Shown here: positions 28,818-42,193 of the stretch, piece by piece
Layout of the letters: every line of letters begins with the position of its first letter
Position numbering within the stretch: position 1 is the first letter of the stretch
Source of the DNA: Mariprofundus aestuarium
GTDB taxonomy: Bacteria; Pseudomonadota; Zetaproteobacteria; Mariprofundales; Mariprofundaceae
Length of the DNA stretch: 64,000 nucleotides
Assembly: GCF_002795805.1 (NCBI RefSeq)
Contig: NZ_CP018799.1
Location: 1,233,001-1,297,000 of the forward strand
Reading direction: 5' to 3'
Program-made: the position numbers and the translations under genes
The notes under the pieces: model-generated
Seen by the model: the letters and a program-made list of their open reading frames with translations, nothing else
Database searches by the model: none
What the model was told of the DNA's origin: nothing

Positions 28818-30230
28818 ATGAGCATATCCATTAAGGGAATAATTTTGGCAGGTGGGTCAGGAAGCCGCTTGTGGCCTCTCTCCAGACAGCAGTTGCCCAA
28901 ACAGTTTCTGAAGCTAAGTGGTGCAGCCAGTATGCTCAGCGCTACGATAGGACGCCTTTCTCCGTTAGTGGCGAAGGATGATGTCTGGGTGGTGACAGGT
29001 GAGTCCCATGCGACAGGTGAGGCGTTCTCGGAGCTTGAAGGCTTGAATCAGATTATGGAACCCTGTGGCCGTAATACGGCGCCTGCAATTGCTGTGGCTG
29101 CTGCCCTGATGCAGGACCTCAGTGGAGATGATCCGATTATGGTGGTTCTGCCCGCTGATCATATTGTGGCTGACAAGGATGCTTTTCAGGCGTGCCTGAA
29201 CAAGGCCGTAGAGGTTGCCCAGGGCGACAGACTGGTGACGTTTGGAATTGTTCCAACCCAGCCTGAAACAGGTTTCGGGTATATTCAGGCCGAAGCATCC
29301 GGTCAAGGCGATATCCAGAATGTACTGCGTTTTGTTGAGAAACCTGACCTTGAAAATGCCCAACGCATGCTGGATGACGGCAACTACTACTGGAACTCGG
29401 GCATGTTTGTCTGGAAGGCCTCAGTAATTCTTGAAGAGGTGGAAAAGTATATCCCAGAAATGACTGCGCTTTTGAATGGTATGAGAGCGCGCTGGAACGG
29501 CGGAGAGTTGTGGCAGGAGGTAGTGCGCGACTCCTTTGATAAGATGCCGGATGTTTCTATCGATTACGGCATCATGGAGAAATCACAGCGTGTTTCACTG
29601 GTGCCCGCAGATATCGGCTGGTCCGATGTTGGTAGTTGGGATGCCGTCCACGAGATTGCCGAGCATGACGTGAATGGTAACGATATCAGCGGTAATGTGC
29701 TGGCCATTGACTGTCATAACACATTGCTGCGCAGTGAACGCAGCCTGATCGCTGCCATTGGCATTGACGACATCATTGCCGTTGAAACACCCGATGCCAT
29801 CCTTCTCTGCAGAGCGGGTGAGAGCCAGCGGGTCAGGGAGATTGTTGATTCCCTGAAACTTGGAAAGGAACGATATCACCTTGAGCATGTCACCGTACGC
29901 CGGCCATGGGGCAGTTATACGGTGCTTGAAGGCCGTGCTGACGGATACCAGATCAAACGCCTTGAAGTACAGCCTGGAGCACGCCTGAGTATGCAGGCGC
30001 ACCAGCACCGCTCGGAGCACTGGGTGGTCGTAGCGGGTACTGCCACCGTGACCTGTGGTGAGCTGGTCAAAACGGTTGCCAAGAACGAAAGTGCCTATAT
30101 CAGCATTGGTGAGACCCATCGTCTTGAAAATCGAGGCAAGATACCGTTGCACCTGATCGAGGTGCAGGTGGGCGATTATCTTGGAGAAGATGATATCGAA
30201 CGCTTTGAGGACATCTACGGGCGAACCTGA
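28818..30230 (+). CDS. manC: mannose-1-phosphate guanylyltransferase / mannose-6-phosphate isomerase
   Basis: A 470-residue bifunctional type II enzyme. The N-terminal pyrophosphorylase domain has LAGGSGSRLWPLSRQQLPKQF and the metal/nucleotide signatures FVEKPD and NSGMFVWKA. The C-terminal cupin (residues about 355-465) has RPWGSYTVLEGRADGYQIKRLEVQPGARLSMQAHQHRSEHWVVVAGTA, the isomerase part. It provides GDP-mannose for gmd. A 193-base spacer separates it from fcl. The inserted island begins just after its stop codon. Confidence 0.96.
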   Translation: MSISIKGIILAGGSGSRLWPLSRQQLPKQFLKLSGAASMLSATIGRLSPLVAKDDVWVVTGESHATGEAFSELEGLNQIMEPCGRNTAPAIAVAAALMQDLSGDDPIMVVLPADHIVADKDAFQACLNKAVEVAQGDRLVTFGIVPTQPETGFGYIQAEASGQGDIQNVLRFVEKPDLENAQRMLDDGNYYWNSGMFVWKASVILEEVEKYIPEMTALLNGMRARWNGGELWQEVVRDSFDKMPDVSIDYGIMEKSQRVSLVPADIGWSDVGSWDAVHEIAEHDVNGNDISGNVLAIDCHNTLLRSERSLIAAIGIDDIIAVETPDAILLCRAGESQRVREIVDSLKLGKERYHLEHVTVRRPWGSYTVLEGRADGYQIKRLEVQPGARLSMQAHQHRSEHWVVVAGTATVTCGELVKTVAKNESAYISIGETHRLENRGKIPLHLIEVQVGDYLGEDDIERFEDIYGRT

Positions 30231-30302
30231 AATTGAATAGAGAATAGTTGCCCAAGGGTGCTATAGATAGGGTCTTCATCTCTGACCGCTTGTTTGAGCG
30301 CG

Positions 30303-31169
30303 TTAGATTTCTGACCATGTCCTCAAGTACCTCAGTGCAGTTGATTCGGTACGCCAACCGCCTCTCAACATAATCTTCTCTAGACCATATCCATCGTTAA
30401 GCAGGTCGAGCGCAGCTCCCACACGGAATGAGTGGCCGCTCAATTCCCTCTCAATATTTTGAAAGGCATGCTGCTGAATCTCCTTCAACAGTTTGCTGAT
30501 TGATGAGGGGGATAAGTGATCTCCAGCCTGTCCATGCCGGTTGATGCGTCTCAGAATATAGCCACCCGTTGCAGCAATACTTTCTTTCCAGTTTAAGATC
30601 GTATCATAAAGCTCTCTGCTGATTGGGATTACTTTTCCTTCGCCGTACTGGTCTGTTTTGGAGAAGTTGAGCCGAATCGCGGTCTGCTTGTTTGGCAGGG
30701 TAATGGCGTCCTCAAATTTAAAGTCGCAAATCTCTGAGCGCCTTCTCATCGTTTCATAGCCAAGAAGAAGCATGACGCGGTTGCGCTGCCCGATAAGGCT
30801 GCCATCACATGTGGCCAACATCTGTTCAAGAATATCTCGGGTGAGGGGAGCAGCCTGCTCCTGAGCCCTTCCAATCCTTCTGTGCATCCTTTTCAGTGCG
30901 AGAATGACCTCGGGGTCATTAGTTGGATCAGGATTCCTTGAGAGCTTAAATATGGAGCACAAGCTAGCGATTCGCCGACGTATAGTGGCGCTCCTTAAGG
31001 TCAGTGACATTTCATCGACGTATTGGGCAAGTGTTTCAGCATCCGTTGGGATTGGCTCTTTTCCCTTACTCCTGCTCCACAATTCAAACTGAATGAAGTC
31101 TGATCTGTAAGCCCGCATTGTATTTTCCGCAAAGGCTCCATCAAACTTCTTCAAGATTTCATCGATCAT
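30303..31169 (-). CDS. tyrosine recombinase (phage-type integrase)
   Basis: A 288-residue integrase. The N-terminal SAM-like domain (AENTMRAYRSDFIQFELWSRSKG) is followed by the catalytic domain with Arg in TMRRRSEICDF, the beta-hairpin Lys in FSKTDQ, H-x-x-R in SGHSFRVGAA, W in RGGWR and the nucleophile Tyr in ALRYLRTW close to the C-terminus. The set is complete, so it should be active. Its start overlaps the HD-protein gene by 11 bases, so both are one operon. It reads toward manC and stops 72 bases from it, as expected if an attachment site lies between 30231 and 30302. Confidence 0.9.
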   Translation of the reverse strand: MIDEILKKFDGAFAENTMRAYRSDFIQFELWSRSKGKEPIPTDAETLAQYVDEMSLTLRSATIRRRIASLCSIFKLSRNPDPTNDPEVILALKRMHRRIGRAQEQAAPLTRDILEQMLATCDGSLIGQRNRVMLLLGYETMRRRSEICDFKFEDAITLPNKQTAIRLNFSKTDQYGEGKVIPISRELYDTILNWKESIAATGGYILRRINRHGQAGDHLSPSSISKLLKEIQQHAFQNIERELSGHSFRVGAALDLLNDGYGLEKIMLRGGWRTESTALRYLRTWSEI

Positions 31170-32157
31170 TTTGTAACTCCATTAAGCATGCTTGCTCAAT
31201 TTCAGGTTCACTATTTGATGTAGATATTCCTGATTGCCGCCAAAACCGTTGGTCGGTTATGGGGTGCTTCACATTGTTTCGCCAGGGTTCAACTGCCGAA
31301 AAAAGCTGTTTTTGCATATCTAGTTCAGTACTAATCCGGTTTGCCATTTGCACCACAGTTGCTATAGGCATCTTTTCCTTATATCCCCAATGCTTAATAG
31401 GCTTATTCAAACTCCAAATATCACGCAACGCCTTGCCGAAATTTGGACAGTCATGATCTAAGCCTAATAGTGGCCAGTGCAACACTTTAAGCGTATCAAT
31501 CATCTTTATGTGGCAGGCATTTCGCCCCATCTTCCTTGGTAGTATTATTCCAGCGTCATGAAACAGGGCGGCGACCGTGCCAATATCTCGGTCAATAATG
31601 TCCAGATATGGGCAGTCAGCGACTATTTCTGCACATTCAAGACTATGTTTTAATAACCCGCCTTCTATTGAGTGATGGGGATTATGAGTGGCAGCTATCG
31701 TACAAAATGGCAGGGCGAACTCTCTGCTTGAAAATACTTCATATATGAAACCTCTTAATTCGTCTGAACAGATAGACTCTACAAGATCAATTAGTCTATG
31801 AAGGTCTTCGGAGTGGCCAACCAAGGATTCAGGAATCGTTGTAAGGGCATCTTTTCGTGTAGGAGTAACTACATCCGCTGAATAGACATCTACGGTCTCA
31901 TTGGGGGAGTTCAATTTCTTTTCCTTTCCGGTAATCATTACAACTTCATTGGCGTTAAATCTCAAGGGTCCTGAATAATTGTTCATCCAACAATTACAGA
32001 CCACACGTTTGTATGCATTCTCAAGGGATAACCTTATGTAATCCCCTTGATTCATGGATGTCCGAAATTCACTGTCACAGACTGTGAATAGTCCTTCTGT
32101 TATATTTGTCGCATTAGTGTTGCTCTCAGCCAACTGTTTTACATCACTGTCGATCAT
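31159..32157 (-). CDS. OB-fold plus HD-domain protein (YhaM/TraI_2-like)
   Basis: A 332-residue protein. Residues about 35-110 resemble an OB-fold nucleic-acid-binding part (YIRLSLENAYKRVVCNCWMNNYSG...NEVVMITGKE). The C-terminal half is an HD metal-dependent phosphohydrolase core: HHSIEGGLLKHSLECAEIV, then VAALFHDAG. The arrangement resembles YhaM-type 3'-5' exonucleases and the helicase-associated TraI_2 domain found next to integrases in integrative elements (family knowledge). Its start codon lies only three bases from that of the divergent XRE gene, so their promoters overlap the coding regions. The exact biochemical role is unknown. Confidence 0.75.
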   Translation of the reverse strand: MIDSDVKQLAESNTNATNITEGLFTVCDSEFRTSMNQGDYIRLSLENAYKRVVCNCWMNNYSGPLRFNANEVVMITGKEKKLNSPNETVDVYSADVVTPTRKDALTTIPESLVGHSEDLHRLIDLVESICSDELRGFIYEVFSSREFALPFCTIAATHNPHHSIEGGLLKHSLECAEIVADCPYLDIIDRDIGTVAALFHDAGIILPRKMGRNACHIKMIDTLKVLHWPLLGLDHDCPNFGKALRDIWSLNKPIKHWGYKEKMPIATVVQMANRISTELDMQKQLFSAVEPWRNNVKHPITDQRFWRQSGISTSNSEPEIEQACLMELQNDR

Positions 32158-32160
32158 GAT

Positions 32161-32472
32161 ATGTTACCTCTTATGGGAGATCCAATAGATCTTATGATAC
32201 ATAAAAGCTCACAAGAGTCAATAGGTGTTTCTTCATCTCAAATTAGGGCTGCTAGAGCACTGCTAGGGTGGAGTGGAAAAGATCTCGCTGAATTTTGTTC
32301 AGTCGGTTTGGCTACAATTCGCAGATACGAACAGGAAAATGGTTTAAAGAAAGCTAATCCGAGTGTTCTTAAAGCAATAATCAATTTATTTGAAAGTCAT
32401 GGCATAGAATTTCTCGGCGACCCACTAGTTAACCCTGGTGTGATTCTTCACCTCGACCGCCAAGCAAAATAA
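32161..32472 (+). CDS. small XRE-family HTH regulator
   Basis: Up to 103 residues. The core SSQIRAARALLGWSGKDLAEFCSVGLATIRRYE is a classic five-helix XRE DNA-binding domain, followed by a short extension (NPSVLKAIINLFESHGIEFLGD) typical of small element-encoded repressors. The true start is uncertain: ATG at 32161 has no ribosome site and later ATG/GTG codons would leave the domain intact. It is the only plus-strand gene within the recombinase block and is divergent from the HD-integrase operon, suggesting that it controls it. Confidence 0.88.
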   Translation: MLPLMGDPIDLMIHKSSQESIGVSSSQIRAARALLGWSGKDLAEFCSVGLATIRRYEQENGLKKANPSVLKAIINLFESHGIEFLGDPLVNPGVILHLDRQAK

Positions 32473-32489
32473 TTAGGTTATATTTAAAC

Positions 32490-34943
32490 TTATAGGTTTG
32501 TTGACAGCACAATCCCTTTAAAGGCTTTGCCAAGCCACTTGGTTTTACTGATTCTCTGATAAGTATCATGAAGGCAGGCGTTAATAGATTTGTCCTTCAT
32601 GCTCGCACGTGTAGTTGCCGACTTCTTACCTGGAAGTAGGGCATTAATTGTGGCGCCAGTTAATTCTTCTTCTCCAAAAACACTTGAGACCCTTTTCATA
32701 GCATGGGATTGAATAACATGAAATGTATGAATGTAAGTCCTAAAGGTGGTTTGTTGACCTAGATGCCCCATCAGCTTGCTAAGCCTGATGAGCGAAGAAC
32801 CACAGTAGTTTGGAATAAGTTCCTCTAGTTCACCCGAGAACAGGTATGCGGCATTCCTGATGCTCCGTGCGTTGAATAATTCATGATGTTCATCTGTTAA
32901 CGACTCAATCAGATCTGGGTAGCCGGCGCTATACATTCGAAGAAGCAGCCACGAGCATCCACTATGACGAAGTGAGTGAAGGACCATGGATTTTCCGAAA
33001 TATGACTGAAGTAGTTTAATCGCCTCTCCGGATAAAGCGGACCTTGTAAACCTGTTTCTAACTTTATGTGGACCAAAGAGGGCGATCTCTTTCAAGTTGG
33101 CATCATCGGAAAACTGCTTGCGCCTGTAGTCATAATATTCTGAAACAATTTTCAGTGCGTATTCTGGCGCAGTAAGATGGAAAGGGGCTCTTCTGCGAGC
33201 AGATGCCGATTTTCCTTTCAGAATATTGATCCAAAGAAACTGTCTGCTTATCTCTAAATCCTTGAGCGTAAGGCGACTTATCTCACCTGATCTCAGGCAT
33301 CCATAAAATGCCATCAGGTTAACTACTACTAGCATGTGTAAGAAATGGGATGGATCGTCCATTTCCATCACGATCCTAATATATGAGTCGAACTCGCTTA
33401 ATCCGATCAATTCGTTCCTCGGTGTACCTCCGCCCCATTCCTCCTCAATGTATTTCAAATTCACATCGCTGAAATATCCATGCTCAAGGCCGTATCCATA
33501 AGCCTGGGTATAGGGCGTAGCTATCGATCGTCGGGTTTTTTCTGATTTGATGCTGTCCCGTGAAAGGGTATCCTCAAATAGAAGTTCATGGTCTTCAGAC
33601 TCCCATTCGTCAATATTGATGCTATCCGGGTCATTGAGAATGCCATTGTAAAAGACGCGATTGAGGTAGTCGCAAACGGTTGATCCAGCAATTCCTTTTT
33701 CATCCACTTTGGCTCTAATCCAGTTAAGGGCTAGGTGGAGTGCGCTTTTCTGGTTTTCTGTTATAGCGTCAGCCTTCTGTAGGGCATTTTCAATGATTGC
33801 ATGGAACTTGGCTTTGACTCCATACGAATTTATTGCCTGATGCTCCTTTACAACGCTTTTCACCTCGTTGCATACGGTCTTAATGACCAGCTTGCTTCTT
33901 CCTGACCAGTCAATGTCATCAACCTTTTCCACGGGTAGCTCTTTTATTTCCACGGTGGAAAGCGTTTTGCCACTATGAGGAAGCTGCATTACTTGCCTTT
34001 GAAAAAGGCCATGAGAGATCCTTCCTTCATCTCTTGTAAGTGCGTAGGACGATTCCCTAGGGTGCGCTGTGGGTAAGGTGTGTCCTGACTGGACTTTCCA
34101 AATGTATGGCTCCAGGCCAATACGCCTATTCAACACCGCATTTAATGGTGCAACTTTTCCAAAACTCTCCCAGGTTTCCGGAATGATAATGCCGGGCTTG
34201 TTTCTTTTAAAATCATCCTTGAACTTCTTATACATCTCTTTGATCTGTTGAAATGCATGACTGCGCCTCTTTCTTTCCCTGTCTGGAAAAAAAAGAAAGG
34301 GCTGCTTCATCCAGCCGGCCATTTTTAGCAGAAACGAGGCAAACAGGAGCTGGGTTGAACGGGGTAAATACAGGATACTGTAATTATCGGACGTGTCTTT
34401 TGGATGAACCCTGGTTCGGAACGAGAAGTTGGTCATCAAGTCACTTGGTTTTAACTCCGCAAGCATGGAATAAATGATGGGCTTGCCAAATGATGCCTCA
34501 CATGAAGATGAGAAGGCTACGGCAAATGCAAACAGTTGTTCCTGGTCATGGTCTGCAGTTATTGCTGACTTAAGCCAATAGTCCCAGAAATACCTTCGCA
34601 GTTCTGTGACGGATCCGGACATAATGAATTCATTCTCTTTCTTGGTTAGGACTAACTTTCGTGGCTTCTTATTGGGAATGATTGGCAGGGCAGCATCGGA
34701 TATCCCCATTTCATTGAGTCGATTTAAGACATCATGGAGGTAGTTATCTACTTTACGTTTGCTATGCCTGATTTCTTTCATGCTGGAAATTTCATTTTGA
34801 ATGAACGATAGGCGCTCAGCATCAATGTGGGGGTTTTCATTGATATGCCTAAGGCATATACCTAGGTATAAACTCCTGTTCGGTGACCAGAAGCGAGGGT
34901 TACAGTTGATGATTTCGCTAGCTAATAGGTTAAATATGGTAAT
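32490..34943 (-). CDS. large tyrosine-recombinase protein of a three-gene module
   Basis: The first ATG (34781) gives 763 residues, but the same frame is open and protein-like for about 54 codons further upstream, containing no ATG, GTG or TTG. GGAGG (34951-34947) is followed by ATT at 34943; starting there gives 817 residues and a 14-base overlap with the preceding gene, the same overlap size as the previous junction. The C-terminal part carries tyrosine-recombinase residues: Arg in GCLRSGEISRL, Lys near LKGKSASARRR, H-x-x-R in HSLRHSGCSWL, His in LMGHLGQQT and Tyr in RTYIHTF. The large N-terminal region is unfamiliar. It is probably one member of a multi-recombinase mobile module. Confidence 0.82.
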   Translation of the reverse strand: MTIFNLLASEIINCNPRFWSPNRSLYLGICLRHINENPHIDAERLSFIQNEISSMKEIRHSKRKVDNYLHDVLNRLNEMGISDAALPIIPNKKPRKLVLTKKENEFIMSGSVTELRRYFWDYWLKSAITADHDQEQLFAFAVAFSSSCEASFGKPIIYSMLAELKPSDLMTNFSFRTRVHPKDTSDNYSILYLPRSTQLLFASFLLKMAGWMKQPFLFFPDRERKRRSHAFQQIKEMYKKFKDDFKRNKPGIIIPETWESFGKVAPLNAVLNRRIGLEPYIWKVQSGHTLPTAHPRESSYALTRDEGRISHGLFQRQVMQLPHSGKTLSTVEIKELPVEKVDDIDWSGRSKLVIKTVCNEVKSVVKEHQAINSYGVKAKFHAIIENALQKADAITENQKSALHLALNWIRAKVDEKGIAGSTVCDYLNRVFYNGILNDPDSINIDEWESEDHELLFEDTLSRDSIKSEKTRRSIATPYTQAYGYGLEHGYFSDVNLKYIEEEWGGGTPRNELIGLSEFDSYIRIVMEMDDPSHFLHMLVVVNLMAFYGCLRSGEISRLTLKDLEISRQFLWINILKGKSASARRRAPFHLTAPEYALKIVSEYYDYRRKQFSDDANLKEIALFGPHKVRNRFTRSALSGEAIKLLQSYFGKSMVLHSLRHSGCSWLLLRMYSAGYPDLIESLTDEHHELFNARSIRNAAYLFSGELEELIPNYCGSSLIRLSKLMGHLGQQTTFRTYIHTFHVIQSHAMKRVSSVFGEEELTGATINALLPGKKSATTRASMKDKSINACLHDTYQRISKTKWLGKAFKGIVLSTNL

Positions 34944-37263
34944 GAACCTCCAGCGGTTTTTTTGCGATGCCCTCTGCCAGTTTCTCTACTGCTTTCTCGA
35001 GAAGCGGGTAACATGTGAAGGAAGAGGTTGACCACTCGTCAAATATCTCGAGCCCTTCACGGCCATGACCCATGTATTCGTCCAATAGGGGTTCTGGAAC
35101 ATCTTTAAAGAGCATGGTTGCGTTCAGGTGCCGAAACAGGTTATTTGCTTTGAATGGTAGCTGCAGTGACGCATTGAATTCTACGATCAGATCGGAAATC
35201 AGGGATCTTGCCTTGGATGCTGTCAGGCGGTGAGCGACAACCACGCCCGATTTCTTCCGGGTGGTTAAGGAAAGGGGGGTGTAATTCCCATCCTGTTCAT
35301 AGTTTATGAAAGGAACCCCATGTTTCACCATCATTATTGTGAAAAGATCCAAGTCCGTTTCAGTTTGCTGGAGCTGAGCCAGCAAGATTGAGTGTGCTGG
35401 CGCAAGGTTTAACTCAGAATAATCCGCTGAATCCTTTGTTTTGCTGATTGCCAGTTTGTAGTGGTCACTGGCTGCAAAGGATGTTTTGTCTCCGGGAGGT
35501 CTGAGGGCGTCAAGTAACTGGATCAGCAGGTATAGATATAGATGCTGATGCTGAAGAAGAGACAGAGCACAATGTATTTGATCCTGACCGCTTAGCCACC
35601 TGAGGCTCTTGTTCTTTCTGTTAAATGCTATTCTCACATGCTTAAGGAATTCAAGATACTCATTCCTGTCTGCAGTCAGCCTGCTGCCGATATAGCCAGT
35701 GGGTAAATACGCGAGATCGAACTGGCAGCATGCGTGTAGAAATGTCTCCAATTCTTTTGACATCTTCCCAAATTTGATCAGGCGATCAACGAAACTTTCG
35801 ACTCCCTGTTGATATTTTTCATTCAATTCAGCCATATCAAACCGGCAATAATGAGCTTTCGCACCATATTGAGCTGGCATGCTCCCGGTAACAAAGGAGG
35901 CCTCAAACTGATCCTTGAAGCAAGCCGGTGCGCAAAGTGTACGAAAGGAACTCTTTATGCGTCTAGCTGTAGGGGTAAGTCCCGCGTTGTGCACTCCAAA
36001 TTGTTGTGCCTGATTATCAACACAACTGATGATGCCTCTAAATGGCCGTTCATCGTTTGATCTGTTAATAATTAAACCTATTTCCTTAGGTAGCAGAATC
36101 TCCATAAATTGTTGTTCATGATTCCCATCAAAGTCCGGCCACGTGGCATTTCCATTGTTTAAGGATACGAACAGAATTCCAGAATCGCGCCTGAAGTAAA
36201 TGAGTCCTTTTTCAAACGGCAGTTCCTGGTCTGTAGAGATCATTTCTTCCAGGCTCTTTTCAGAAGCCCCACATGTGGCAAGAATGAATTCATAGGCGAT
36301 TTCGAGCTTGTTCCCGTGCTTATGCAAGTGTTCGAAAAATCCTGCAACGCCAATGAGTGTTAACCGGTGAACGTCAGTGATTGCAATATTGTTACGGGCA
36401 CCTACAGCCTGATATCGATAATACAAGGCCCGTTGATCATCCTTTCGAGTGATTCTGGAGCCGTTCTTTCCTGCGACTCTCTGATATGTTGATTTGGGAT
36501 TTCCTTCATCGTATGGATCAGATGTCTCAGTTGTAATGTATGGGGTAGAGGAGGGGGCATCATTCGAATCTACATGGTTTTCAATATCTGTTGTGAAAGA
36601 ACCATACCCCTTATCAACCTTTCGGATATAAGAGCCATAGGGACGACCGCCATCCAGGAGTGATATAGCTAGCTCCATATTATCCGATGTTTCTAATTTG
36701 GATATGAACTGAATGGTTCGCTGGCGATACGAATCAACAGTTTCGTTCTGTGAAGGATCAAGTGCCTCGCAACTCTTCTTAATAAGAACATCTCTAAATA
36801 TATGTGTTTGTTCATATAGCTGACTCTCCTTGATCTCTTCGTCATGTGAGACAGAACAAGTGGCAATGAATAGCTTACAGGCTTCTGTATACGCCTGTTT
36901 TTTTACCTTCGAGCCGGACTTCCTCCATTTCCTGTGGAATTTATTGATTCCATACAGGAGAGGATAGCGCTGACCCATTTGATCGCTATTGCGAATACGT
37001 TTGGCAGAGTTTTGGGTGGACCAGTGCCGTTTAAGTTCTTTCAACTCTTCAACAGAAATCCCTGAAGGAGTGATATCCATTTCTATTAAACGCTTGCATA
37101 GGAACGGTATATACGATGCAGGAACTGGTATCTGAAACACCAAAGCCAGACTTAAGCCTTTTATCTCGTCCGAGGCGCTGTCATCCATGCATTCCATAAG
37201 ATCAGCAACTGCCTGATCAGGTAGGGTGGCGGGTGCCTTTTCCTTTGGCTTATTGTTTGGCAT
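34930..37263 (-). CDS. divergent recombinase-like protein of the three-gene module
   Basis: A 777-residue protein without an obvious named domain by eye. The last 200 residues have the spacing of a degenerate tyrosine-recombinase domain: Arg in LLDALRPPGDK, R-H in NLFRHLNAT, His in DEYMGHGREGLEIF, and a Tyr in FTCYPLL. The expected H-x-x-R is altered (RHLN), so catalysis is doubtful. The middle carries Ser/Asp-rich, probably flexible sequence (about 235-275). It overlaps the upstream 257-residue gene by 14 bases. It resembles companion integrases in trio systems such as Tn554-type, RIT or gamma-mobile-trio elements; I cannot say which. Confidence 0.7.
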   Translation of the reverse strand: MPNNKPKEKAPATLPDQAVADLMECMDDSASDEIKGLSLALVFQIPVPASYIPFLCKRLIEMDITPSGISVEELKELKRHWSTQNSAKRIRNSDQMGQRYPLLYGINKFHRKWRKSGSKVKKQAYTEACKLFIATCSVSHDEEIKESQLYEQTHIFRDVLIKKSCEALDPSQNETVDSYRQRTIQFISKLETSDNMELAISLLDGGRPYGSYIRKVDKGYGSFTTDIENHVDSNDAPSSTPYITTETSDPYDEGNPKSTYQRVAGKNGSRITRKDDQRALYYRYQAVGARNNIAITDVHRLTLIGVAGFFEHLHKHGNKLEIAYEFILATCGASEKSLEEMISTDQELPFEKGLIYFRRDSGILFVSLNNGNATWPDFDGNHEQQFMEILLPKEIGLIINRSNDERPFRGIISCVDNQAQQFGVHNAGLTPTARRIKSSFRTLCAPACFKDQFEASFVTGSMPAQYGAKAHYCRFDMAELNEKYQQGVESFVDRLIKFGKMSKELETFLHACCQFDLAYLPTGYIGSRLTADRNEYLEFLKHVRIAFNRKNKSLRWLSGQDQIHCALSLLQHQHLYLYLLIQLLDALRPPGDKTSFAASDHYKLAISKTKDSADYSELNLAPAHSILLAQLQQTETDLDLFTIMMVKHGVPFINYEQDGNYTPLSLTTRKKSGVVVAHRLTASKARSLISDLIVEFNASLQLPFKANNLFRHLNATMLFKDVPEPLLDEYMGHGREGLEIFDEWSTSSFTCYPLLEKAVEKLAEGIAKKPLEVHYHI

Positions 37264-38023
37264 TTTGATTTAGGCTCGTGTCGTCTAGAGTGAGATTTAG
37301 ACGGTATAATGCCACGTCTAGCTTTCCACTATTTACCACGCAATTGAATTTTTGAATTCTTTCGGGGTCTTGCAGAACACCCATTACCTCATCATATGAT
37401 GGGGCGTTATTATCACTGGCAAATGAATTCCATTTTTCCTCAATAGCTGCAGCCGCTAATTGTATAGCTTGCCCATTCAGAATTTTACTATTTCGGCTCT
37501 GTACTGCTCCATATTTTTTCTTTCGATCCTGGAGTGCTTCAAGGCTACGACCCCATGCAGGAAGAAGTTTATGAAGACAAGCTGTCGTGAATTGCTTTTT
37601 ATCGGGATTTCGAAAGTTCTCTTCAATAATCAACTTGAATGATGGAATGGTGTAATATTTTTCAATCATCACCTCAGCAGCATTCGCATCATAGCGTGCG
37701 GGCAAGTAATACTCACAGATACTCTTGATTTCCTGAATTTCTTTTTCTGAGTGTTTCTCTGGATGAAAGACAAAACATCGTATGTGAGATGCCCTGTAGA
37801 TGTGTATGAAATTCCGCCAATACTCAACACCTCCCATGCATTCGAATTGTCCATCACCACTTGACCATAAAATTGGGGTCAACATATCATCCACTTCCTT
37901 TTTTCCTTCAGAAAAAAGGAATAATCCTGGGTCATATAGCTTGCTAATGGTCCTTACATCAATCCATTTATATTCCCCGGAAATTTTGAGTTTGGGGCTG
38001 ATGTCTTTGAATGCGTTATTCAT
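37250..38023 (-). CDS. unknown protein, first gene of the recombinase module
   Basis: A 257-residue soluble protein with no recognised domain or signal peptide. Charged, mixed alpha/beta composition; a basic stretch at LQDRKKKYGAVQSRNSK might contact nucleic acid. It is the first gene of the minus-strand trio and overlaps the next by 14 bases, so it is expected to be an accessory subunit of the recombination machinery. It is preceded by a long hairpin-rich noncoding region, and no clear ribosome site is seen at its ATG. Confidence 0.7.
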   Translation of the reverse strand: MNNAFKDISPKLKISGEYKWIDVRTISKLYDPGLFLFSEGKKEVDDMLTPILWSSGDGQFECMGGVEYWRNFIHIYRASHIRCFVFHPEKHSEKEIQEIKSICEYYLPARYDANAAEVMIEKYYTIPSFKLIIEENFRNPDKKQFTTACLHKLLPAWGRSLEALQDRKKKYGAVQSRNSKILNGQAIQLAAAAIEEKWNSFASDNNAPSYDEVMGVLQDPERIQKFNCVVNSGKLDVALYRLNLTLDDTSLNQNAKQ

Positions 38024-38192
38024 GTCGACAATGATCTTTTCACATTGTTAAAAGTCAATAAAGACCTTTAAAAACAGATAGTTAAAGATAAACTTTCATG
38101 TTGTCTTCAAGTTTTATTGTTCAAAACGATCAACAAAGATCATAAGTGTTTGTAATTAATGGATAAATAGACATGTATATGATCAAGTATCG

Positions 38193-38391
38193 ATGAAAGT
38201 TAGATGGCCTCTAACTTTCATGGTTCAAGTTTGTAGTGGTGAAACTTGAACATTCCTGTGTCAATTTAACACAGGATTTAATATTTCATGGATGGAAAAT
38301 CCGAAGGCAACTACGAGTGCCGATTCGGACAAGTGGAGAGGACTCTGCCTAAGCAGTAGCAAGCATTGTGTCACGCCGATTAAGTAATCGG
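38193..38391. other. hairpin-rich noncoding region (five dyads)
   Basis: Successive inverted repeats occur with no coding frame. 38193-38221: 12-bp perfect arms (ATGAAAGTTAGA), 5-base loop. 38223-38251: 10-bp perfect arms (GTTCAAGTTT), 9-base loop. 38255-38275: 7-bp perfect arms (CCTGTGT), 7-base loop. 38300-38329: TCCGAA-GGCA stem with a two-base bulge. 38376-38391: CCGATTA-AG-TAATCGG dyad. AACTTTCATG at 38213 and a nearby TTCAAGTTT are also found as a degenerate copy at 38091-38115. It may be a structured RNA, recombinase-binding sites, or operators for the flanking divergent genes. Confidence 0.7.
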
Positions 38392-38534
38392 TTGCCTCTA
38401 GAGCGCGATAATGCACCTTATTTTGATCGATGCGTTTTTCAATGTGAGGGGGGGTAAAATAGATGATGATCAGTGGTTGTCATCTTGCTACTTTTGTCCT
38501 AATGTATAGGCACTTATCTTCAAAGGCCAAGACT

Positions 38535-39155
38535 ATGAGACATTCATATAATAATCAGACAGCTACAGAACGAATTCTATCGCTTCTAAAAGAACGCGGT
38601 GTTATTCGCCCTCGTGACCTTGATGAGTATAATATTCCACGTCGATATCTGAGTCGCCTTTACGAGCGGGGAATCATCCTTCGCTCTTCTCGTGGCATAT
38701 ACATGGCGGCCTATGCCGAGCTTTCAGAGATGCAGACTATCGTAGAGGCCAGCAAGCGAATCCCCAAGGGAACGGTATGCCTGCTTACTGCACTGGCGGT
38801 TCATGAGATGACCACGCAGGCACCCTTTGAAGTCTGGCTGGCGATTGATCGAAAAGATTGGCTACCACAGATAAGCGACCTGCCTGTCCGAATCGTCCGT
38901 TTTTCTGGCGATGCCCTGAAGAGCGGCATTGAACATCGAGTGATCGATGGCGTTACCGTGCCTGTCTATAACCCAGCCAAGACGGTTGTCGACTGCTTTA
39001 AATACAGAAACAAGATTGGACTGGATGTGGCAATTGAAGCCCTGAAAGGTGGTTGGAGGGCCAAGAAGTTTTCTATGGATGACATCCGGAAGTATGCTGG
39101 TGTTTGCAGGGTTCAGAATGTCATGCAGCCATACCTTGAGACTCTCATAGGATGA
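38535..39155 (+). CDS. abiEi: AbiEi antitoxin (type IV toxin-antitoxin)
   Basis: About 206 residues. The N-terminal winged-helix region (ATERILSLLKERGVIRPRDLDEYNIPRRYLSRLYERGIILRSSRGIYM) binds the operator, and the C-terminal domain (GTVCLLTALAVHEMTTQAPFEVWLAI ... YNPAKTVVDCFKYRNKIGLDVAIEALK) is the typical antitoxin core. Known AbiEi proteins repress their own promoter by binding inverted repeats; a perfect dyad lies at 38376-38391. The open frame reaches back to 38463, but MRHSYNNQ at 38535 gives the usual length. It overlaps the toxin gene by ATGA. Confidence 0.93.
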   Translation: MRHSYNNQTATERILSLLKERGVIRPRDLDEYNIPRRYLSRLYERGIILRSSRGIYMAAYAELSEMQTIVEASKRIPKGTVCLLTALAVHEMTTQAPFEVWLAIDRKDWLPQISDLPVRIVRFSGDALKSGIEHRVIDGVTVPVYNPAKTVVDCFKYRNKIGLDVAIEALKGGWRAKKFSMDDIRKYAGVCRVQNVMQPYLETLIG

Positions 39156-40036
39156 CTGGCAAAGGTGTAAATACAGCGGCATCTATTCGCCAGCGTCTGC
39201 TGAATATTGCACGCGAACAGAAGGTCGATTTTAATCGCATCCTGACCGACTATGGATTGCAGCGATTACTTTTCCGGTTGTCGGCTTCGAAGTATCGAGA
39301 TGAGTTCGTCCTAAAGGGTGCGATGCTTTTCTCTTACTGGAGCGGTGATGTTTACCGAGCCACCAAGGATATCGATTTCCTGAAATCCGGAGATGCCTCG
39401 ATTGCTTATCTTAAGCAGGTGTTTATAGACCTAAGTTATCAAGATGTCGTGCCTGATGATGGGTTGATTTTTGATCCAGCATCGGTAAAGGCTGAGGAGA
39501 TCAGAGAAGAAGATTCCTACGGAGGTATTCGGGTCACCTTGAAAGCAACGCTTTCTGGTGCTCGTGTCTCGATGCAGGCAGATATTGGTATCGGTGATGT
39601 AATTACTCCGGCGGCACAGGACATCGAGTATCCAGTCCTGTTGGATTTACCGTCACCTAAACTCAAAGCTTACCCTGTAGAAACAGTCATCGCAGAAAAA
39701 TTCGAGGCCATGGTTTATCTCGGATTTGCCAATAGCCGGATGAAAGATTTCTATGACATCTGGGCCTTGTTGAGATTTATGAAGCCGGATCACGACCTGA
39801 TTGCCAAGGCGATTGCCAACACATTCAGACGGCGTGGAACTGCGCTTCCTTCGGATGTACCAGTGGCTTTGACCAGTGAGTTTTCAAGGGATGATATGAA
39901 GCAGAAGCAGTGGGCTGCATTTGTCAGGCGAGCCGCAGTTGGGAGCAGTGCAAAAGCGACTCTGCATGAAACAGTTGAAGAGATCAGGCCGCTGTTGTTG
40001 GGTCTGGTAGATATTGTGAGGAATAATGATGAATGA
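39152..40036 (+). CDS. abiEii: AbiEii/AbiGii nucleotidyltransferase toxin
   Basis: A 294-residue toxin of the nucleotidyltransferase superfamily. FVLKGAMLFSYWSGDVYRATKDIDFL holds the NTase motif (G-x-x-L...T-K-D-I-D), and KAYPVETVIAEKFEAMVYLGFANSRMKDFYDIWALL is the family block with catalytic Lys/Asp. Together with AbiEi it forms a bacteriostatic phage-exclusion system. It is coupled to the antitoxin through a four-base overlap and is the last gene of the island before the native polysaccharide gene. Confidence 0.93.
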   Translation: MTGKGVNTAASIRQRLLNIAREQKVDFNRILTDYGLQRLLFRLSASKYRDEFVLKGAMLFSYWSGDVYRATKDIDFLKSGDASIAYLKQVFIDLSYQDVVPDDGLIFDPASVKAEEIREEDSYGGIRVTLKATLSGARVSMQADIGIGDVITPAAQDIEYPVLLDLPSPKLKAYPVETVIAEKFEAMVYLGFANSRMKDFYDIWALLRFMKPDHDLIAKAIANTFRRRGTALPSDVPVALTSEFSRDDMKQKQWAAFVRRAAVGSSAKATLHETVEEIRPLLLGLVDIVRNNDE

Positions 40037-40330
40037 TAACTCCAACTGATTAAGTCTCCCCTGTTCCAAGAGGTCACGAGCGATGGCGAGACAGTTGGGG
40101 TAGATATATATTGAGGCATTGAGGCTCTAATCGGCGATCCTGATGGCAATGACTCTGCTCCGCATCCTGAGCCACGATAAGTGAAGTTATTGTGGGCAGA
40201 GATATATCAAGTATTTTACAGAAAAAACAGGGCTTGTGAGGCGCTCAGGTCGGAAAGCAGTAAAAAAGATGAACATTTGATGCTCGCTTGGGGACGTGAA
40301 ATTCTGATAGGGTTGCCAAGCTGGTTGGCT
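40037..40330. other. spacer at the right edge of the island
   Basis: No coding potential or tRNA is seen. By eye it has no direct repeat of convincing length in common with 30231-30302, so the island's attachment sites stay undefined. A small 5-bp palindrome GCCAA-GCTGG-TTGGC is at 40314-40328. Confidence 0.4.
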
Positions 40331-40359
40331 TTGACAAACATCACATTGCCATCTATAAA
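40331..40359 (+). promoter_or_regulatory. strong sigma-70-type promoter for the WecA-like gene
   Basis: A perfect TTGACA, 17-base spacer, TATAAA. The predicted start near 40366 leaves a 30-base leader. This is the best promoter match in the window and lets the gene be expressed independently of the interrupted operon. Confidence 0.8.
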
Positions 40360-40395
40360 GATATAGCACTGATTATGACTAAAAGGATTTATTAA

Positions 40396-42087
40396 ATGTC
40401 ATTGGAAGACTTGGGGCTTCTGTTTTTTACAGTTCTTATACTGTCACTACTGCTTACACCTGTTTCCGCACACTTCGCCGCTTTTGTCGGCGCTGTTGAC
40501 CACCCCGTTGATAGAAGTGTCCACACGACCGTCATGCCGCGCATGGGCGGTCTGGGTATGGCGCTGGCCCTGCTTGTTGCACTACCGCTATTCACCGACG
40601 TTAACCCTGCACTTCTTGGCTTTTTGGCAGGGCTGCTAATTGTCACACTCACAGGTATGGCTGATGATATTTGGGCAGCATCCCACCGGGTCAAATTCGC
40701 AGGCCAGATCATTGCCTCTATTGTCTTCATAGAGTTGTCCGGCCTGCAGATGGACTCTTTCGGTAATCTGTTCGCTTTCGGTGAAATTAGTTTCCCAGGT
40801 ATTTTGGGATATATAGTTACACTGATCTGTCTGCTTGGCGTCATTAACGCAATGAATCTTTCCGATGGCCTGGATGGTCTCTCCGGTGGCATGGCCGCGA
40901 TCTCCTGCTTCTTCTTTGGGGCTTTTGCTTTGGGTACCAATAACTGGGATGTGTTTATTCTGGTGACTGCAATATTTGGCGGTGTTCTCGGGTTCCTGAA
41001 GTTCAACACGCACCCTGCAAAACTGTTTATGGGTGACACTGGAAGTCTCATGCTCGGATTTTCGCTTGCCAGCGTGAGCATCATGCTTTGTGTAACCGGG
41101 GAGAGTGGTGGAGTGGCCCCGATCACCGTTGCAATGGTTTTGGCTATACCGGTTGTTGATACGATCCTTGTTATGTCACACCGGATAATGAAAAGAAAAA
41201 GTCCATTTCATCCGGATAAAACACACCTTCACCATCGCCTGCTGGCCATAGGGCTTTCACATGCTGCAGTGGTTTCCATAATCTACGTTGGCATGATTGC
41301 TTTCGGCCTTCTGGCACTTTTTGTAAAGGATCTGCCGGAATACTGGCAGCTTGCAAACGGGTTGGCATTGGTGGTGGTTTTCTATGTCGTTTTGATGCTT
41401 TGTGAGCATCATCAGATATCGTTTGCAACTATTTCGAGGGCAAATAAAGAAACTGAAGTTTTACGTCACGATTTGGTAGTTTTTCTTGGAAGAAGTGTAG
41501 GTTTTTTTCCATATGTTCTTCTTGCGGGGCTTTCTCTGCCGCTTCTGTTCACCACAGACATACCACCGGAAATGACAATGCCGAGTTTTGCACTGGTCCT
41601 CTTTGTCGCATTGGCATTTCCGTGGAGAAATGAAGCAAAACACCTGCCTGTTATCTGTGGTCTTTTCTATCTCTGCGCATATTTCATCACCTACACCTGG
41701 GGTATCTCCTCATACGGGCATTTCGATTTGACACTGTATGCCGTGGTGTTTCTGACTTTCATTGCGATCTGGTCAGCTTTGAAAATCAAATTCAAACAGC
41801 GCAAGACAGTGTTTTTGACATCCAGCTTTGAGATATTGCTGATTTTCATCTCATGGTTTATTCCTTTCGTGGTACTACCGGCAATTGAAATTCCTGAACA
41901 TGCTTCAATCGCAGCAAAGCTGGCCTGTCTAGGCGCTATCCCTCTGTTCATTACGATTAAATTGGTTGTTAGAAGAGGTGTATCCGAAGGCGCGCCCATG
42001 GAAGATAGAAGGAAGGCAACCCATAATTGGCCCATGGCATCGGGTATGATTGTGATACTCTGCTTTATCATCTTGAAAAGCATTTAA
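40396..42087 (+). CDS. WecA/MraY-family polyprenyl-phosphate sugar-1-phosphate transferase with extra membrane domain
   Basis: A 563-residue polytopic protein. Residues 1-340 are the transferase: VDRSVHTTVMPRMGGLGM, the metal-binding GMADDIW, NAMNLSDGLDGLSGG, MGDTGSLMLGF and the loop DKTHLHHRLL. It would start the polysaccharide repeat on undecaprenyl phosphate, probably with GlcNAc-1-phosphate. Normal WecA proteins are about 340-370 residues; here roughly 220 more residues with about six additional hydrophobic segments follow, of unknown role. It matches the WecG-like enzyme at 23943 as the next step, supporting membership in the polysaccharide locus despite the island between them. Confidence 0.9.
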   Translation: MSLEDLGLLFFTVLILSLLLTPVSAHFAAFVGAVDHPVDRSVHTTVMPRMGGLGMALALLVALPLFTDVNPALLGFLAGLLIVTLTGMADDIWAASHRVKFAGQIIASIVFIELSGLQMDSFGNLFAFGEISFPGILGYIVTLICLLGVINAMNLSDGLDGLSGGMAAISCFFFGAFALGTNNWDVFILVTAIFGGVLGFLKFNTHPAKLFMGDTGSLMLGFSLASVSIMLCVTGESGGVAPITVAMVLAIPVVDTILVMSHRIMKRKSPFHPDKTHLHHRLLAIGLSHAAVVSIIYVGMIAFGLLALFVKDLPEYWQLANGLALVVVFYVVLMLCEHHQISFATISRANKETEVLRHDLVVFLGRSVGFFPYVLLAGLSLPLLFTTDIPPEMTMPSFALVLFVALAFPWRNEAKHLPVICGLFYLCAYFITYTWGISSYGHFDLTLYAVVFLTFIAIWSALKIKFKQRKTVFLTSSFEILLIFISWFIPFVVLPAIEIPEHASIAAKLACLGAIPLFITIKLVVRRGVSEGAPMEDRRKATHNWPMASGMIVILCFIILKSI

Positions 42088-42193
42088 AGCCCGTTGCCTC
42101 CTGATACCATTGGACGCTAATAGTGAATATAGGCAATATCACCGCATGCACCTCCACTCTTTACATGCTACCGATTTTATCGCTCGATTCTTA

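Follow-up and report, generated by a model that had tools for sequence, protein, structure and literature searches.

Genomic islands that carry several recombinases, among them the SE elements, GInt, gamma-mobile-trio and RIT, are recent discoveries, and why some of them need a catalytically dead recombinase is still a question. The core of the SE elements (intA-tfp-intB-srap) encodes two catalytic tyrosine recombinases, a recombinase-fold protein devoid of catalytic residues and a small protein; these genes are needed for recombination, which is strand-biased (PMC10214605). In GInt (ginABCD), all four genes are required for recombination, and the GinC protein lacks a catalytic residue (PMC5385486). 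RIT proteins comprise 315-410 amino acids and all possess the catalytic tyrosine (PMC10214605, PMC3414803), while TnpA, TnpB and TnpC of Tn554 are recombinases plus a small protein, with actinobacterial relatives that carry one very long recombinase (PMC3414803). Here we analyze a trio of genes for proteins of 257, 777 and 817 amino acids that, together with a tyrosine integrase (hereafter Int), is found on a 10-kb block beside polysaccharide genes in the chromosome of the iron-oxidising marine bacterium Mariprofundus aestuarium. The window studied is a stretch of 64,000 nucleotides (positions 1,233,001-1,297,000) of the complete genome (NZ_CP018799.1; 2,537,610 bp; G000 in our comparisons), and unless another locus is named, positions are those of the window. 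Relatives of this gene set recur on islands that are gained and lost in Halomonas-type bacteria, which suggests that the trio, hitherto undescribed, and a further recombinase represent a new variety of mobile DNA element.

The block lies between manC (end at position 30230) and wecA (start at 40396) and contains, in this order, the genes for Int, an HD-domain-like protein, an XRE-type regulator, the trio, and AbiEi/AbiEii. This is the arrangement that the original prediction had described, and each of its genes, including a complete tyrosine integrase, was found where it had been placed. The trio is read from the minus strand, with the gene for the 257-amino acid protein (37250-38023) followed by those for the 777-amino acid (34930-37263) and the 817-amino acid protein (32490-34943); successive genes overlap by 14 bp each. 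Before residue 55 of the third trio gene, no ATG, GTG or TTG codon is on offer, and an ATT codon at 34941-34943 (or a nearby ATA) is the apparent start; translation from the first ATG (34781) would yield a protein of 763 amino acids (32490-34781). Since the frame upstream of this ATG is conserved and homologues align across the extra N-terminus, the 817-amino acid reading with its non-ATG start is probably correct. Int, also encoded on the minus strand (30303-31169; 288 amino acids), is a XerC/D-like tyrosine integrase (PF00589, E 1.9e-17) with a SAM-like N domain.

The original prediction had counted two recombinase-like proteins in the trio. Both large proteins are indeed of the tyrosine-recombinase kind, but only the 817-amino acid protein possesses the complete catalytic set. 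Every homologue of this protein that reaches the C-terminus exhibits all of the motifs (GxxR..E, GK[ST] with few variants, HxLRH, GH, and Y); the window protein matches PF00589 (E 4.7e-9), and a profile search against the PDB connects the family with the solved structure of XerA (E 2e-5). By its motifs, it is thus the sole trio member with a full recombinase active site. The 777-amino acid protein retains R588, K610, R711-H712 and H733; the corresponding Arg, Lys, (Arg)His and His residues are kept throughout its family, the tyrosine is missing in 24 of 24 members, and PF00589 recognizes four of 16 homologues (best E 4.4e-6). The most fitting description is thus a recombinase that has lost just its nucleophile. 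The window's own 777- and 257-amino acid proteins have no family match in Pfam, NCBIfam, PHROGs or PADLOC, and PADLOC contains none of the three trio proteins; nothing relevant was recovered with the tyrosine-less family in the PDB profile search, and the predicted structures of the 777- and 257-amino acid proteins (mean predicted local distance difference test scores of 42 and 44, respectively) are of too low quality to be used. The 257-amino acid protein, for its part, is no recombinase. The sole hint of a ParB_N-like fold comes from a distant small homologue (L149), which scores below the cut-off with PF02195 (ParB_N; E 0.0085) and reaches E 9e-4 with TIGR04285; other small homologues display a strand pattern around a conserved 'PI' that is compatible with ParB_N, and nothing beyond that.

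Homologues of the trio were gathered by whole-genome searches, and their distribution is that of an accessory locus, as had been proposed: a first search among relatives detected the trio in four of 100 genomes (the M. aestuarium genome included), and a close trio occurs in only two of the Mariprofundus genomes searched. Searches with the 777-amino acid protein or with profiles placed the close family in these two genomes, in Ghiorsea, and in 12 of 151 Halomonadaceae genomes (seven of 24 genera), while a class-wide sample around Halomonas yielded it in two of 369 genomes. With a broader profile, distant trios of the same gene order were recovered in more Mariprofundaceae and elsewhere in the phylum, their active proteins being 739-1206 amino acids long; the order small, tyrosine-less, active is common to the close loci and to six distant ones. 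A plasmid or phage origin was considered and rejected: in tblastn searches, neither plasmids nor phages contained a match to the 777-amino acid protein, plasmids contained none to the 817-amino acid protein, and viral contigs yielded no relative.

At 20 of the 24 close loci, a further recombinase is encoded near the trio, and its gene almost always has the same orientation. Its kind varies: Mariprofundus has the HD-Int pair, Ghiorsea a large serine recombinase, and genome G793 an HD protein with an Arm-type integrase, while most of the Halomonadaceae loci encode a protein of about 218 amino acids, a helicase and Int. In four of the Halomonadaceae loci, the genes for Int and for the small, tyrosine-less and active proteins form a single compact, co-directional cluster. 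An HD-integrase pair adjoins the trio also in G793 (HD homologue in L112: PF01966, E 1.9e-8) and, in a distant form, in the congener G015, whose trio (L146) has an HD protein and an apparent Arm-type integrase nearby. Two of the four close loci without a second recombinase are cut short by a contig end (L068) or lie on a short contig (L113), a third (L100) is a second trio copy, about 14 kb away from another that is accompanied by such a recombinase, and the fourth is L111. Across 11 loci, the sequence distances of Int and of the active trio member are correlated (rho 0.90; 0 of 400 permutations), a value to which the split between Mariprofundus and Halomonadaceae contributes. The association between the trio and a second recombinase is thus strong in the close family, and it is not universal.

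Several features of these other loci deserve mention in their own right. A C4 antisense RNA (RF01695) is located just upstream of the gene for the protein of about 218 amino acids in six of six scanned loci (L069, L098, L099, L101, L102, L106), and this stretch before the helicase-integrase genes of the Halomonadaceae islands is better conserved (84-91%) than the genes themselves; C4 antisense RNA is a control RNA familiar from phages. In G885, a HEARO RNA (RF02033; L099, 8445-8679) immediately follows the gene for the active trio protein. The Ghiorsea trio with its large serine recombinase (L006, 2886-5368) comes after a umuD-like gene and what, read by eye, is a broken umuC-like gene, so that umuC may be the insertion site of this element. 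Defence-type genes among the trio's neighbours include a TOTE-type primase-helicase beside a distant trio (L149, 4163-6562), HipA and AbiEi/AbiEii in L111 (11630-19834), and a type I restriction R subunit.

A related island that is present in one lineage and absent in another is seen in Halomonadaceae: G750 contains an 11.4-kb insert with Int, the trio and an SNF2-type gene, and the same two flanks are 353 bp apart in G796, a sister species (genus of G807). For the galE-side element, no empty site was found within its genus. Among the relatives of M. aestuarium, the block is not present in all. The congener G008 has it at the same place, including a homologue of the XRE gene in the same position; its cargo differs (HTH-HipA and genes of no assigned family), and rmlB/rmlA-like genes replace manC on the Int side, while the wecA side is common to both genomes. 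In G018, a relic of Int (the last 51 residues; L057, 60-226) remains near fcl-gmd in a contig that carries fcl and gmd and no trio; this relic adjoins an apparent insertion-sequence end at the contig edge. G036 and G030 possess wecA near polysaccharide-type genes without any block.

Comparison with these relatives, which had been proposed as a means of defining exact ends and any target duplication, furnished approximate limits and neither of the two. The comparison with G008 places one limit of the block at about position 30303, where identity ends at the stop codon of Int, the point at which similarity stops in all three of G000, G008 and G018, and the other limit at about position 40308, 90 bp upstream of wecA. 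Neither direct nor inverted repeats at the block ends were convincing in the window or in G008. One tentative candidate for a left-end repeat is TGGGCAGAGATATAT (40193-40207, plus strand), the inverted counterpart of TGGTCAGAAATCTAA at the Int end (30317-30303). Among shuffled motifs, 0.55% match equally well, the motif was picked after the fact, and no such pair was found in G008.

We give an even chance to the reading that the trio and the nearby integrase form one multi-protein module of an integrative element, which would work like SE and GInt but with proteins and a gene order of its own. In favour of this reading speak the recurrent gene order, the complete catalytic set of the active member next to partners that lack only the tyrosine, the frequent second recombinase with its correlated distances, the presence or absence of the G750 island, the patchy distribution, and the precedent of SE and GInt. 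The trio and Int would together drive recombination of a chromosomal integrative element whose site is the end of the polysaccharide locus beside wecA. The 817-amino acid protein and Int would be the catalytic recombinases, the 777-amino acid protein would be a catalytically dead partner that binds DNA and builds the synapse without being able to cut, and the 257-amino acid protein would serve as an accessory DNA-binding or assembly factor. Such a mixed complex of cutting and non-cutting proteins would exchange only one pair of strands, and strand bias would thereby be explained; a one-strand-biased, copy-out-like circle of the type described for SE elements would be formed and then be reintegrated site-specifically. 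The HD and XRE proteins (in Halomonadaceae the helicase, its partner protein and the C4-type antisense RNA) would have regulatory or helper functions, and the AbiE, HipA and SNF2-type genes would be cargo that favours retention of the island. Alternatively, the dead member may take a tyrosine in trans, as is the case in Flp, a conceivable route because it keeps the Arg/Lys/His pocket. A further-reaching formulation is that the trio defines a separate class of integrative elements, with a core of three proteins (a small one that is perhaps ParB-like, the tyrosine-less one that retains its other catalytic residues, and a very long active one), an exchangeable tyrosine or serine recombinase as the second enzyme, and a mixed live/dead complex that imposes one-strand exchange; this we regard as possible yet clearly tentative.

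A number of observations weigh against a joint module. Five distant trios (L147-L151) have no nearby recombinase of the tested types, and the second recombinase does not belong to one family (tyrosine, Arm-type or serine), so that the trio may function without such a partner. The locus counts are not fully independent, since eight of the 24 belong to just two orthologous groups shared by four sister species. Similarity to the SE proteins was not found, an hhalign comparison in a profile test of low sensitivity being not significant, and for the window element neither termini nor a target duplication nor a circular form could be identified. Furthermore, synonymous divergence between G000 and G008 differs along the block: at four-fold sites it amounts to 0.24 for Int and 0.23 for HD, against 0.59-0.67 for the trio, and Int/HD and the trio may therefore not always have travelled together. 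The values for the trio are within the range of those for neighbouring genes (gmd 0.64, the open reading frame at 42110 0.66, wecA 0.40, fcl 0.36). The island may predate the divergence of the two species, an exchange at the Int end having followed later.

Some of these points also speak for the strongest competitor, namely that two mobility systems share one island: the trio would be self-sufficient, Int (or the serine or Arm-type recombinase) would stem from a second element or mark a docking site, and the block would be composite, as the original prediction had suggested. Three kinds of recombinase accompanying the trio, the distant trios that stand alone, the divergence gap between Int-HD and the trio, and the Int relic of G018 in a contig without a trio would all follow. 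Against this stand the almost constant pairing and common orientation of the two in the close family, the correlated distances, and the compact clusters in four loci; part of the divergence gap may, moreover, reflect rate, Int being the more conserved protein in Halomonadaceae too, a fact that also weakens the idea of a recent Int-HD swap with the trio staying put. Given a second recombinase at 20 of 24 loci and the correlation of distances, a single module is at least as likely as two systems, and we hold the two-system explanation to be a possible but rather doubtful one.

It is also conceivable, though we judge it improbable, that the trio is itself cargo, for example a system for defence or regulation in which recombinase folds have been put to new use, and that the integrase of an ordinary island does the moving. 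The same trio next to different integrases, the defence-type neighbours at several loci, and the fast evolution of the small and tyrosine-less proteins (39% and 48% identity between G000 and G008, as compared to 96% for Int) could be accounted for in this way; the active member, however, retains its whole catalytic set, SE and GInt provide precedents in which the same kind of protein set is used for recombination, and the compact clusters with Int as well as the absence of trio proteins from PADLOC point in the same direction. With respect to location, seven close loci in two classes (the window, G008, L069, L098, L099, L101, L102) lie at polysaccharide genes, as judged by Pfam or direct homology and given as a raw count; L103-L110 (eight loci of one Halomonadaceae genus), L112 of G793 and the Ghiorsea locus lie away from such genes. 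A domesticated, locus-specific system that reshuffles polysaccharide genes for surface-antigen switching, to which these seven loci and the differing genes beside Int in G000 and G008 next to a conserved wecA side might be attributed, is very unlikely in view of the loci elsewhere, the presence or absence of the island between sister species, and the fact that polysaccharide loci are general hot spots.

The remaining parts of the block are briefly described here. The HD-domain-like protein (31159-32157, minus strand; 332 amino acids) overlaps Int and has weak similarity, below cut-offs, to HD domains of the TraI_2/MobH type. The XRE-type helix-turn-helix regulator (32161-32472, plus strand; 103 amino acids; PF01381, E 2.4e-6) is situated between the trio and HD-Int. 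On the other side of the trio, AbiEi (38463-39155, plus strand; PF13338, E 8e-10; PADLOC AbiEi, E 6.5e-82) and AbiEii (39152-40036, plus strand; PF08843, E 1.1e-48; PADLOC AbiEii, E 2.6e-109) are adjacent as an antitoxin and a nucleotidyltransferase toxin, the composition that marks an AbiE toxin-antitoxin pair. The G+C content of the block (0.42-0.48) is in no sharp contrast to that of its neighbourhood. Upstream of the trio, a highly structured stretch (38180-38420; minus-strand z -5.6) contains perfect stems of 12 and 10 bp and a third at 91%; it has no match in Rfam and no similar sequence at the other trio loci, and it is possibly a leader RNA, a set of terminators, or binding sites for the recombinases.

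Among the closest known systems are the SE elements. The trio and Int likewise amount to two catalytic recombinases, one recombinase-fold protein without the catalytic tyrosine and one small protein, and overlapping, co-directional genes on a chromosomal island with varied cargo are found in both. There are nevertheless differences: the order is not intA-tfp-intB-srap but small, tyrosine-less, active with a separate Int; the SE proteins of pAQU1 measure 545, 614, 671 and 161 amino acids, in comparison to 257, 777 and 817 for the trio; and the tyrosine-less protein keeps Arg, Lys and His, unlike the Tfp protein of SE. SE ends are imperfect inverted repeats of 13-19 bp, for which the window offers the one tentative candidate pair and G008 none. 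None of the four SE proteins matched any open reading frame of the trio loci in phmmer searches. GInt, reported in Halomonas, is similar in combining several recombinases, one of them (GinC) short of a catalytic residue, with a small protein on a cargo island. As compared by gene order and description rather than by GinA-D sequence, it has three recombinases followed by the small protein, while the trio begins with the small gene and has Int apart; imperfect direct repeats of 10-17 nt flank GInt, and the block ends of the window and of G008 have no convincing counterpart.

The original prediction had noted a resemblance to Tn554, RIT and gamma-mobile-trio modules while assigning the trio to none of them, and motifs, sizes and profile results bear this out, for the gamma-mobile-trio as far as GmtY is concerned. 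The gamma-mobile-trio (GmtX/Y/Z; Nat Microbiol 2024) reportedly consists of three genes, including a recombinase, with defence cargo, and our block is alike in these respects. The model for GmtY (NF040693; 441 positions), however, was reached by only two of 16 active homologues, far below the cut-off (best E 0.0056), and GmtY was rejected; no other Gmt model was matched in all of NCBIfam (whether models for GmtX and GmtZ exist there was not established; NF040694 represents an unrelated family). RIT shares three adjacent, overlapping genes with the trio and was set aside because proteins of 257, 777 and 817 amino acids with one complete active site contrast with three catalytic recombinases of 315-410 amino acids. 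Tn554 similarly unites recombinases with a small protein, but both of its recombinases have the catalytic motif, whereas the trio has a tyrosine-less partner in 24 of 24 cases and its small gene first.

As far as sequence comparisons tell, the trio is distinct from SE, RIT and Tn554 by order, size or motif, from GInt by order, and from the gamma-mobile-trio as judged by GmtY. A likely role can now be proposed for two proteins without a family name, and in both Mariprofundaceae and Halomonadaceae such islands can be linked to polysaccharide loci as well as to defence cargo. In our view, the trio family offers an independent protein set next to those of the known multi-recombinase islands, with a dead partner that appears to keep all activating residues minus the tyrosine; because this residue alone was lost, the idea of a mixed complex or a shared active site is directly testable.

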